A stretch of 64,000 nucleotides of DNA, from the NCBI RefSeq assembly GCF_002005105.1, contig NZ_MSCV01000007.1, positions 1 through 64,000 of the forward strand, given 5' to 3'. The notes below the pieces were generated by a model. The model was not told where the DNA came from. It did no database searches and saw nothing but the letters and a program-made list of their open reading frames with translations. The stretch comes from Methylocaldum sp. 14B (GTDB taxonomy: Bacteria > Pseudomonadota > Gammaproteobacteria > Methylococcales > Methylococcaceae). Both the position numbers and the translations under genes were made by a program. The first letter of the stretch is position 1; each line of letters begins with the position of its first letter. Of the stretch, positions 35,543 through 61,069 are shown piece after piece.

Positions 35543-36486
35543 AATGACACACCTGTTTATCGAGCACGGCAGGCCGTGATCTCTCGGTTGTCCCTGCCCA
35601 TGAGTCGCGACTTTGAGAGGCGGGTAATTGAGCTATCTTGGGCCCAGCGCATTTTCATCCCGATAGTACGGACACCGCGACGGGAGAGATGAACGCAATC
35701 CCCCCTGGCCCAATGCTGTTAAGTTAACTCGTCATTCCGGCAGGGATTGCTCACCCCATCCCTGGGGTTCGTCCTACGGACCGTGCTCCGCACGTCCAAA
35801 TTTGCTCCTGGCAAATTTGTGCCGGACAAATCGGCAGGATGGCCGATTTGCACGCGAAGCGTCCGTAGGGTGCCGCACAGGGACTGTGCGGCATGAATCC
35901 AGGGCACAGGGAAATGACACGCCTCTGCCATCCATGGCTTCTGGACCCCGGCATTCCAATCGCAAACGGTGTCTTCGGGAAGGGCGTGGCCGGCGCTCCC
36001 GGCCAGGCCGTTTGCGATTGGAAGGGTCGCGACTAAAGCGACCGTTTGCGATTGGAAGGGTCATCCCAGCGCTCCTGGGATGACCGTTTGCGATTGGAGC
36101 ACCGAAGCCACCCTTCCCTGCCGGGGTGACGTCATTCGCCTTAACTTAACGGCATTGCCCTCCCTGGCCCCTTTTGCAAAGGGGGGAATGACGCTTGCCT
36201 CCCCCCATTGTGAAAGAGGGATCGAGGGGGATTCAAAACGCCGGCCGAGCACCGGATCCCTGTCGGTTTTCTCATCGGACCGACACGACCTAACGTCCAG
36301 TAGATGGCGCGTTGCCGCGTAAGCCGTCGTCGGTAAGCGAAAACGCCATATCCGCCGCGAATCTACGCCGCCAAAGTATCCCCGTCAATTGCAAGCAGGT
36401 TGAGACTCAGCGCACAACTCGAGACGTCCGGCCCGATAAATTCCGGAATGTGGCGCCCCGTCTCTTTTCAAAGACATGGACCCGGT
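35543..36486. other. Long intergenic region, mostly repeats
   Basis: About 940 nt without a supported gene. It contains several short inverted sequences (for example CAAATTTGCTCCTGGCAAATTTG near 35807), the GATTGGA-box array at 35954-36098 (listed separately) and C-rich/G-rich inverted stretches near 36170-36230. The sequence looks like accumulated non-coding repeats. Confidence 0.6.
35954..36098. repeat. GATTGGA-box hairpin array, copy B
   Basis: TTCCAATCGCAAACGG (35954-35969, inverted) then CCGTTTGCGATTGGAA at 36008, 36042 and 36084. Hairpins fill the gaps: TGGCCGG-CGCTC-CCGGCCA (35987-36005), GGTCGC-GACTAAA-GCGACC (36025-36043) and a 10-bp stem GGTCATCCCA/TGGGATGACC around GCGCTCC (36059-36085). 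Loops are conserved and stems vary with kept pairing. Confidence 0.85.
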
Positions 36487-39245: not shown

Positions 39246-39313
39246 GTAACCGGCTCCGCGAGAGGTGAAACGCCGCTCGCGGAGCCGATCGCGCAGGTCT
39301 TTCGCATCCCGCC

Positions 39314-39665
39314 GCGCGTTGGGGCAGAGGACTCGATACCGGTATCGAAGAAAATATCCGAACCGTACTCGATCACCGTTATCCGGGAGAGGTCGAAACG
39401 CTCTTCATTTTCGACGACGCACACGAACCGGCGCTTCCCTTATTAATCAGGCCCGTAAATACCCTCCTGGTATTTCGGGCCGCCGCCCGGGCCGGTACAC
39501 GCCCGGCCTGGGCTCACGCGGCTTGTCGCCGCGCCGGGGCATCCCTGTCCCGGATTAACCCGGCCTATTATTTATAGGCCGGGTTAATAGTCGAAAAAGC
39601 GCTTGCCGAGCGGAAGCGAGCCGGACAGGCCGTCGACGCGCGAGTCATTTTTTGCGGCCACACGC
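39314..39665 (+). pseudogene. Glycosyltransferase (GT2-like) relic split by a hairpin element
   Basis: The frame before the hairpin element encodes GLDTGIEENIRTVLDHRYPG, then EVETLFIFDDAHEPALPLL. The frame directly after it encodes VEKALAERKRAGQAVDARVI then FCG. Joined, these give a continuous stretch typical of a family 2 glycosyltransferase (EENIRT...YPGEVE...FDD...ALPLV...ARVLFCG). The start and the catalytic C-terminal half are missing. Removing the element (39448-39588) restores the frame exactly (LPLLIVEKAL). The family call is by eye. Confidence 0.65.
39448..39588. mobile_element. 141-bp five-hairpin element, copy 1
   Basis: Five consecutive hairpins: GGCCCG.../CGGGCC (39450-39481), GCCCGGGCCGG/CCCGGCCTGGGC (39485-39513), CGCGGC-TTGTC-GCCGCG (39517-39533), CCGGGGCA-TCCC-TGTCCCGG (39534-39553) and ATTAACCCGGCC/GGCCGGGTTAAT (39554-39588). 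A near-identical copy is at 60488-60628. This copy splits a glycosyltransferase relic, which shows it moved in. It codes for nothing. The subterminal hairpins and lack of a clear target duplication resemble IS200/IS605-type non-autonomous elements (inference). Confidence 0.75.
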
Positions 39666-55995: not shown

Positions 55996-57096
55996 ATGAC
56001 CGATTTCTCCGCCAGTGAATCGACGTCCTTCGAGCCTCGACAGGGGTTGCTCACTCGTCCGGTGATGCGCGCCCTCCCCGAACTGCGGGAGCTTCTGATA
56101 CTCGCGGAGCACGTCGCGGATGCGGGCTGGGATTGGGCGCGGGTGGAAGTTTTGGCGGAATTGCATCACGGTGAGGAATCGTTTCCGCTGCTGGCCTTTC
56201 GCTTCGGTCCGCCCGATCCCGCCTTGCCGGCTCTGGCGCTGTTCGGCGGGGTCCACGGGCTCGAGCGTATCGGCACGCAGGTCGTGACCTCATATCTCCG
56301 GACCCTGGTGGAAATGGCTCGCTGGGACCGGGTGACCCGAGACATGCTCTCCACGACTCGCCTGCTGATCATGCCGCTGGTCAATCCGGTCGGCATGTAT
56401 CTCAAACGACGATCCAACGGCAACCGGGTCGATCTCATGCGAAACGCGCCGGTTCGGGCGGAAGGATTGTCCCGTTGGCATCTATTCGCCGGGCATCGCA
56501 TTTCTCCCGCATTGCCCTGGTATCAAGGGCAGGAAGACGCTCCCATGGAGATCGAGGCGCAAACCCTTTGCGATTGGGTGCGCCGCGAGCTCTTTCCCGC
56601 CCGAACCGCACTCAGCATCGACGTGCACTCCGGCTACGGGAAGGTAGACCGCCTGTGGTTTCCCTTCGCGAAAACCCGGAAGCCCTTTCCGGCACTGGCG
56701 GAAGCCGTCGCCTTGAAGCACCTGATCGACAAGACCCATCCCAACCACGTCTATTGCATAGAGCCCCAGTCCCGACAGTACCTCGCCCACGGCGACTTGT
56801 GGGATTACCTCTACGACGAATACAGAACCGTCCGGCCCGACGGCCGCTATATTCCCTTCACCCTGGAGCTGGGTTCGTGGCTTTGGGTGAAGAAGAACTG
56901 GTCGCAGGCATTCTCGGCCCTCGGCGTCTTCAATCCGCGCCTTCCTCACCGCGTGCGGCGGACCCTAAGGCGTCATCTTTTGCTGTTCGAGCTTTTCTAC
57001 CGCGCCGTACGCTCGCCCGAGCCATGGACCGAGCTCGACGAAGCCGAGCGAGAGCGGTTAAGGCGTCAGGGCTTGGAATGGTGGTATGACGGATGA
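55996..57096 (+). CDS. M14-family zinc carboxypeptidase-like protein
   Basis: A 366-residue M14-type metallopeptidase. Zinc ligands: H87 and E90 in FGGVHGLERIG and H211 in SIDVHSGYG. The substrate-binding Arg and Asn lie in GNRVDLMRN (NxRxDL pattern), and the catalytic Glu is E291 in FTLELGSW. There is no signal peptide, so it is probably cytoplasmic. The substrate is unknown. A partial relative of its 3' end is found at 60776-60880. Confidence 0.82.
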   Translation: MTDFSASESTSFEPRQGLLTRPVMRALPELRELLILAEHVADAGWDWARVEVLAELHHGEESFPLLAFRFGPPDPALPALALFGGVHGLERIGTQVVTSYLRTLVEMARWDRVTRDMLSTTRLLIMPLVNPVGMYLKRRSNGNRVDLMRNAPVRAEGLSRWHLFAGHRISPALPWYQGQEDAPMEIEAQTLCDWVRRELFPARTALSIDVHSGYGKVDRLWFPFAKTRKPFPALAEAVALKHLIDKTHPNHVYCIEPQSRQYLAHGDLWDYLYDEYRTVRPDGRYIPFTLELGSWLWVKKNWSQAFSALGVFNPRLPHRVRRTLRRHLLLFELFYRAVRSPEPWTELDEAERERLRRQGLEWWYDG

Positions 57097-57311
57097 TGAG
57101 ACGCGCAAACGCCGGACCAATCGGCCGGATGTCGATTGGCACGCACTGTGCCCATATGATTCGCCGACGCATATTCTGGTCTACGGTACATTTTCGTGCG
57201 TGCTGAATTCTCCTGTATGACGCGCAGGATCAGCGCGCCGCCGGGTTGTCTGCTGATTTCGCATCCTCCCCGGCGCTCGCCCGCTGGGCGCTTCACGCAT
57301 CCAAATCGACT

Positions 57312-57554
57312 CCCGCCGGTGAAGTTCCTCTGCCGACCGCCGAACTTCCTGGCGATTTGGATCGCACGCTTACCCTTGATGTAGCCCACCACGTTCGAAA
57401 CCGCATACTTCGGCGGAATGCTGATACACATATGAACGTGGTCGCCCATCAGGTGACCTTCAACAATTTTCGATTCCTTGTGCCCGGCGAGCTCCTGAAA
57501 TATCTCTCCAAAATGCCGCTTGAGCGCACCAAAAATCAATTTCTTCCGCCGCTT
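57312..57554 (-). pseudogene. IS200/IS605-like TnpA transposase fragment
   Basis: The central part of a Y1 (tyrosine) transposase: KRRKKLIFGALKRHFGEIFQ, then the HUH-type GDHVHMCISIPPKYAVSNVV, and GYIKGKRAIQIARKFGGRQR. The N-terminal strand and the C-terminal part with the catalytic tyrosine (usually ...FWARGYFVSTVG) are replaced by unrelated sequence. It is therefore inactive. It is the only transposase trace in the window, next to the SBBP gene. Confidence 0.8.
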
Positions 57555-57681
57555 CGAACCGTCCCCGCCGCAGAAGACCTGCAACAGGCCGCGCACTCCC
57601 CCTGGTTTTGCATGCTCTCCTCGATGGCCGCACCGGCGCGGCCTGCGTCGGCCAGGTCTTGAGCCGCTATGAGCTTGGATG

Positions 57682-60306: not shown

Positions 60307-60487
60307 GATTCCCTCTCCGGGATCGGACCTGTCCATGGCGCTCACCCCCGTTTGGGCAGAATCTTAGCCTCGCAGAGTTTGAGTCCAGGAAAAATAAACG
60401 TCCTTTTTCTAATTCCTATGACCGGCTTCGCGGCATCAAATTCCGATCAGGGCTGTTCAATGCTTGATGCCCTGAGAGTTTATGAAT

Positions 60488-60628
60488 CAGGCCCGTAAAT
60501 ACCCTCCTGGTATTTCGGGCCGCCGCCCAGGCCCGGTACACGCCCGGCCTGGGCTCACGCGGCTTGTCGCCGCGCCGGGGCATCCCTGCCCCGGATTAAC
60601 CCGGCCTATATATATAGGCCGGGTTAAT
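60488..60628. mobile_element. 141-bp five-hairpin element, copy 2
   Basis: It matches copy 1 (39448-39588) over its whole length except for a few changes, all consistent with hairpin pairing. In hairpin 2 a G-T pair becomes A-T, in hairpin 4 a G-T pair becomes G-C, and the hairpin 5 loop differs (ATATA against TTATTT). The left flank here is TGAAT, against TTAAT at copy 1, and both are followed by CAGGCCCG. Confidence 0.8.
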
Positions 60629-60775
60629 AAGATGCGCTCCAGGTTAATGGCGTTGTCATAGAGAGCGGCAGCGATATTGGGGGCTGATCCCAAAATGGGA
60701 AATATAGTCCGCGTTGGGCGCAATAGGGTACTCCCGTATTGCGCCGCATGAGGAGGTTTCCCATGCGGCTCTACG

Positions 60776-60880
60776 GCCCTGTTCGATCTGTTCTACCGCG
60801 CCGTCCGCTCGCCGGAACCCTGGGTCGCACTTGGCGACGCCGAGCGCGAGCGGTTACGGCGTCAGGGGTTGGAATGGTGA
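60776..60880 (+). pseudogene. Relic of a second M14 gene (3' end only)
   Basis: The frame ALFDLFYRAVRSPEPWVAL, then GDAERERLRRQGLEW and a stop matches the C-terminus of the M14-type protein (LFELFYRAVRSPEPWTELDE, then AERERLRRQGLEW). The two copies differ at many third codon positions, so this is a diverged paralog or homeologue rather than a fresh duplication. No upstream part is present. Confidence 0.8.
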
Positions 60881-61069
60881 TATTAGGTGTCGCTGACGCG
60901 GCGCCCCCTTCAATCATGCTTCCAACCGTCGACCGCCAAGACGAAAAATACTCCGAGCCAAAACGGATCGCCTGCGGCGCTTGTCATCATTTCGTCACCA
61001 AACCGCAATATTTGCGTCATACCGCCTCCGTAAAGTGCCTTTCCATCGAAGCACAGACGGAAGGCTTAC

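Follow-up and report, generated by a model that had tools for sequence, protein, structure and literature searches.

What kind of element lies inside the remains of a glycosyltransferase gene in Methylocaldum sp. 14B, and how did it come to be there? The window analyzed here, i.e., the whole 64-kb stretch of DNA, carries two copies of this element, both on the plus strand and 96% identical. A preliminary description of the locus had delimited a 141-bp unit of five successive hairpins (39448-39588 and 60488-60628) without a clear target duplication, and had likened it to an IS200/IS605-type element moved as single-stranded DNA or to a mobile structured RNA. That a small mobile element, itself non-autonomous, has landed in what is left of a glycosyltransferase gene is supported by our analysis. 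Judged from genome comparison, the element is very likely an IS630-type MITE that would be moved by a related IS630 transposase in trans.

The unit itself had to be redrawn. Copy 1 spans 145 bp (39443-39587), as does copy 2 (60483-60627), in which the second base of the left end is changed. In copy 1, the left terminal inverted repeat TTAATCAGGCCCGTAAATA (39443-39461, plus strand) and the right one TTAACCCGGCCTATAAATA (39569-39587, minus strand) were located by a pattern search, and the left one was also compared with IS630 ends; about 100 of the 199 matches of this search in the own genome were listed, and an isolated diverged end could escape it. Read inward, both ends are imperfect inverted repeats, alike at 15 of 19 positions (counted by eye). 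The consensus of the copies starts with TTAATCAGGCC and ends with GGCCGGGTTAA, from which individual copies differ. The AAT preceding the 141-bp unit and the TTAA closing it are both part of the element's own inverted ends. A TA dinucleotide, to which no strand is assigned, is present on either side: at 39441-39442 and 39588-39589 for copy 1, and at 60481-60482 and 60628-60629 for copy 2. For copy 1, both are identified from the sequence and the flank counts given below, and the left one additionally from an empty orthologous site, so the target duplication overlooked earlier is a duplication of TA. The element has a GC content of 64-66% and, at 145 bp, no room for a transposase gene.

The two copies seen at first are indeed both in the window, but many more are present in the genome, which comprises 5.62 Mb in 84 contigs. 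A core pattern of the element matches 77 times with at most three mismatches, 54 times exactly (the reversed pattern matches 11 times), and BLAST located 67 copies or pieces in 60 stretches around most of these core-pattern matches and in the window, leaving out rows below 60 or 62 bits. For a structure-and-sequence model, 43 of the 93 located copies were used; they come from nine genomes and were chosen for being full length and diverse. With 150 candidates scored per genome, for which reason the counts may be low, this model has 84 matches in the own genome, pieces included, followed by 65, 61, 50, 41 and 27 in the same-family relatives G002, G007, G001, G003 and G006, respectively. Low counts are found in G005 (n = 8), G017 (n = 4), G012 (n = 1) and G031 (n = 1), and there is no match in G028, G004 and G010. 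Ten of the 13 selected genomes, the own genome included, thus have model matches. A DNA search of 151 genomes, again including the own one, gave matches at E 0.001 or better in 11, among which that in G055 is marginal (34 bases). Marginal matches of 31-55 bases (G055 and four genomes of a class sample) were excluded from the carriers, which leaves the own genome and nine relatives, all belonging to one family. Among the 369 genomes of the class sample, for which at most two candidates per genome were scored, good matches are restricted to the own genome and G012. The features of a short, dispersed element with a transposase-free interior are therefore all present.

A pattern scan of contigs from other genomes, which may omit records close to the window's genome, returned 25 stretches, two of which carry the element while 23 match around a 19-mer only. 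Both element-bearing stretches (L111 and L114, from G002) derive from a MAG labelled Methyloversatilis universalis TT109_59_23. This MAG groups with the window's genus, and the name of the record may be wrong. The methane/ammonia monooxygenase A subunit is encoded in eight of the 11 genomes searched, the own genome among them, and has no match in G002, G005 and G007. The host bacterium is probably methane-eating.

The flanks of the copies reveal a target preference. Both flanks are readable in 66 of the 67 own copies: TA precedes the element in 62, follows it in 60 and occurs on both sides in 56. The base ahead of the TA position is a pyrimidine, and the one behind it a purine, in 62 copies each. 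Copies in relatives (n = 26) behave similarly, with TA before the element in 21, after it in 21 and on both sides in 18, a pyrimidine ahead in 24 and a purine behind in 25. The preferred target is thus YTAR. TA is missing on at least one side in 10 of the 66 own copies and eight of the 26 copies in relatives. One tandem pair (L065:4188-4331 and L065:4334-4461) has a single TA in common. Among the 59 own copies with sufficiently long flanks, 47 are intergenic according to a crude ORF caller, compared with around 14% of control points, and the orientation of own copies relative to the neighboring genes is even (13/12/12/10). Such an intergenic bias combined with an even orientation is more in line with a parasite that the host tolerates than with a regulator. 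Four own copies (L056:3022, L056:5813, L057:2954 and L063:8051) break off where hairpin 5 starts (GGATTAACC) and have neither a right end nor a TA. One possibility is a failure of the draft assembly at this palindrome.

The relic that is interrupted by copy 1 provides an empty site for comparison. Its left piece (39329-39441, plus strand), a family 21, HpnI-like glycosyltransferase fragment, is 88% identical to an intact gene in G003, a relative from the same genus, and its right piece (39590-39657, plus strand) is 87% identical to that gene, the remainder of which is missing here. The reading frame is open once the element is removed, as had been proposed, but the joint is different. The predicted LPLLIVEKAL is six bases off, as collapsing the element together with one TA yields LPLVEKAL, which is also found in the intact relative. 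The G003 gene encodes 402 amino acids, is assigned to Pfam family 21 (its score as HpnI, 105.5 bits, is below the cut-off of 310) and its protein reads EPALPLVEKAL, i.e., the joint of a collapsed TA. In the alignment, one G003 base lies between the two relic pieces, which is the length expected if a single TA is left. This base is a G where the collapsed target would have an A (TTG for TTA, both leucine); hence, the empty site reads TG instead of TA and one substitution must be assumed. Vertical descent of the element would be indicated by a relative with an intact gene and the element at the same place. In G003, the gene is intact and the site is empty at exactly this position, which speaks for insertion over vertical descent. 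Most simply read, this comparison places the arrival of copy 1 after the lineages of the window and of G003 had separated, while it may also be that G003 lost the element by clean excision. At the corresponding locus of G001, no glycosyltransferase piece can be aligned, so this genome provides no empty site for comparison. The joined relic of 97 amino acids gives no match in Pfam or NCBIfam, nor does the left piece alone in Pfam. The relic region as a whole (39302-39661) is short and lacks sequence on either side. Its two flanks are found far apart in G003, one at about 50 kb and the other at about 1.95 Mb, which points to a rearrangement of the region in one of the lineages.

A second, paralogous empty site stems from a dispersed intergenic repeat family with members at 35723-35969 of the window (minus strand), at L065:1304-1701 and at L068, which has received at least one insertion of the element. 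A comparison of flanks, in which other repeats dominated, yielded at least one useful pair: L068 has the repeat with the element, whereas L065 and the window, near 35.7 kb, have it without. In the window, the stretch 35601-35840 (minus strand) covers a member with an empty target and no MITE, to which L068 is the filled counterpart. Filled and empty versions differ by the element plus one TA, and by one to few base changes beside the joint. The orthologous and the paralogous empty site thereby both support a duplication of TA.

Which transposase could act on such ends? The best candidate occurs in G017, itself a carrier of the element (four model matches), which encodes five identical IS630 transposases of 345 amino acids (NF033545 IS630, E 1.5e-70; DDE_3, E 6.6e-41) in TA-flanked copies. 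The insertion sequence measures about 1.1 kb, is bounded by TTAACCCGGCCAAATAATACCGTAC and TTAACCCGGCCATAAAATACCGTAC, and has ends of the type TTAACCCGGCC..., with TA preceding 10 out of 10 ends. Both of its ends agree with the right end of the element at 16 of 19 positions, while their agreement with the left end of the element is 13-14 of 19. A comparison of this insertion sequence with the element showed likeness that is confined to the ends. In the same genome, the ends of a remnant (L212) match an element end at 15-16 of 19 positions. More broadly, one element end is matched at 13-16 of 19 by IS630 copies or remnants in each of G028, G031, G017 (L212), G035 and G058, and the ends of IS630 remnants within the window's own genus (G003 and G002) do so at 13 of 19. 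The background, determined for 20,728 TA sites in own loci with the copies masked, has a maximum of 12 of 19. The element thus has its ends in common with an IS630 element in a related host. A helper in the same genome is usual for a MITE, albeit not required. A DDE_3 search and end comparison found no intact IS630 helper with matching ends in the own genome. Three DDE_3 matches are present there (L143-L145), and these were rejected as helpers, since the ends that can be read (two of the three candidates) match at eight and five of 19 positions. DDE_3 matches occur in eight of nine relatives, and the loci of 30 of these matches were examined. G006 has no DDE_3 match despite its 27 model matches of the element, while G028 contains an IS630 with such ends and yet no model match.

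From these ends and targets, we infer an IS630 transposase as the mover and cut-and-paste as the mode. An IS630-family transposase with similar ends (TTAAYC[A/C]GGC...), supplied in trans, would bind both inverted ends, upon which the 145-bp piece would go by cut-and-paste into a YTAR target, with the central TA being duplicated on insertion. The outer hairpins derive partly from the inverted ends.

An IS200/IS605 origin, in which a hairpin-recognizing Y1 transposase would move the element as single-stranded DNA, was suggested by the strong hairpins and by a TnpA remnant located about 3 kb from copy 2. Hairpins near the ends are a feature of non-autonomous IS200/IS605 elements, and the remnant is genuine: a decayed IS200/IS605 TnpA gene lies at 57066-57596 on the minus strand (Y1_Tnp, E 3.3e-18), one of seven Y1_Tnp matches in the own genome, and there is no sign of it moving the element. 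Given that the model matches 84 times in this genome, a single neighboring remnant means little. IS200/IS605 elements are not known to have inverted ends or a target duplication, whereas the element under study has both, including empty sites for the TA, and its ends match those of IS630; moreover, some variants that lack hairpins are flanked by TA. Inverted ends, TA duplication and a matching IS630 together indicate an IS630-type MITE, and the single-strand mechanism is considered extremely improbable. The same Y1 proteins, along with the high number of mostly intergenic, palindromic copies, might alternatively evoke a REP/REPIN-type palindrome that is moved by a REP-associated tyrosine transposase. 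Yet, REP palindromes measure 20-40 bp (PMC3733652) against 145 bp for the element, which duplicates TA in addition. The Y1 remnant of the window, which is the one of the seven Y1 proteins covered by this classification, scores 69.4 bits as IS200 (cut-off 55) and 17.9 of the 80 bits required as REP transposase. The probability of this origin is practically negligible.

A different question is whether the fold itself has been selected. The five successive hairpins described before are confirmed in copy 1 by folding. The DNA fold has -59.1 kcal/mol and a z of -10.3, the RNA fold a z of -9.3, and none of 200 shuffles is as stable in either case. All on the plus strand, they comprise hairpin 1 (39450-39481), overlapping the left inverted end; hairpin 2 (39485-39513); hairpins 3 (39517-39533) and 4 (39534-39553); and hairpin 5 (39554-39588), a near-perfect palindrome in which the right inverted end faces an inverted copy of itself. 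All five are identified from folding and pair counts. In the set of 43 copies that underlies the model, which covers nine genomes, 94.4% of the cells pair. Changes on both sides of a pair occur in 23 cells (16 of them in hairpin 2), compared with 6.5 +/- 2.0 for shuffles, none of 500 reaching the observed number, and 4-10 for slid partners. They affect nine pairs compared with 2.9 +/- 1.3 and 3-7, respectively, all these covariation counts being inflated by related rows. Such covariation implies that the fold is kept in the spreading lineage or that the arms are corrected against each other. It is also, together with the high proportion of paired cells, what speaks for the view that the dispersed copies act as structured RNAs or regulatory elements, their fold being under selection for a function in the cell and transposition serving only to spread them. 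Correction between palindrome arms could produce compensatory changes as well, and young copies display no constraint on their stems: in 51 young own copies, the mutation rate is 0.85% in stems and 0.98% in loops, and 12 of 43 one-sided stem changes preserve the pair, which falls inside the random expectation of 17-50%. Young copies thus seem to decay neutrally. Considering also that the orientation toward neighboring genes is even and that a search of the window gave no Rfam family at gathering scores, a mobile structured RNA is not favored and appears very unlikely.

Within the reading as an IS630-type MITE, variants that lack hairpins provide a further view on the role of the fold. TA flanks both sides in three of the four variants without hairpin 1 and part of hairpin 2 (L260, L261, L264 and L265), in two of the four without hairpin 4 (L055, L262, L268 and L277) and in one of the three without hairpin 5 (L043:2969, L269 and L276). 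In the remaining ones, TA is absent on one side or an end is missing. The TA-flanked variants indicate that the fold is not needed copy by copy, and the full fold is probably dispensable for mobility. Selection of the five-hairpin row in the amplifying lineage, e.g., for recognition, replication or protection of the folded strand or transcript, is a rather doubtful proposition: the covariation across genera fits it, while the neutral decay of young copies and the TA-flanked variants set limits to it. If true, the modular fold would be a conserved trait of this MITE, and its interior more than filler between two transposon ends.

Among known systems, the closest described case is RUP together with IS630-Spn1. 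In the passages of PMC2229807 and PMC3049150 devoted to it, RUP of Streptococcus pneumoniae measures about 107 bp and has more than 100 copies, IS630-like inverted ends and a TA target; the latter source gives a GC content of 27.5%. RUP thus resembles the element in being short, present in many copies and bounded by IS630-like ends at a TA target. RUP is AT-rich with a putative helper in the same genome, whereas the element has a GC content of 64-66% and no intact helper was found in its own genome. The row of five hairpins in the element is a further difference. Correia/NEMIS (Neisseria) and ERIC/IRU (enterobacteria) are described in PMC2229807, including its Table 1, as small, with inverted ends, TA termini, a target duplication and a stable transcript fold. 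Small size, inverted ends, TA termini, duplication and a stable fold are in common with our element, as compared by description only. Correia/NEMIS and ERIC/IRU form one long stem, unlike the row of hairpins without orientation bias seen here. The IS630 of G017 is similar to the element in its ends, the TA on both sides and a common host, and is different in that it carries a transposase gene. The hairpins are comparable to those of non-autonomous IS200/IS605 elements, from which the element differs by its inverted ends and target duplication.

Within the open-licence PMC literature, including a MITE review (PMC10969869), no description of the element in methanotrophs was found. In the Methylocaldum genome paper (PMC10974252), 'mobile' and 'insertion sequence' are absent, and 'repeat' and 'transpos' occur once each, unrelated to such an element. 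The element hence looks like an undescribed TA-inserting MITE, with an anatomy and behavior of a known type. Its identification would explain an abundant repeat of a methanotroph family by tying it to a candidate helper transposase, and it places one gene-disrupting insertion, that in the glycosyltransferase relic with its empty site in G003, on the tree. Since a candidate helper, defined ends and empty sites are all at hand, IS630 mobilization in trans can readily be studied in this system, and the covarying hairpin row raises the testable question of why the interior of a MITE keeps its fold.

Finally, the flanks of the copies are crowded with several other repeat families. The sequence just right of copy 2 (60779-60883) is a decayed duplicate of 56983-57087 (84% over 105 bp), which forms the end of the gene at 55996-57096.
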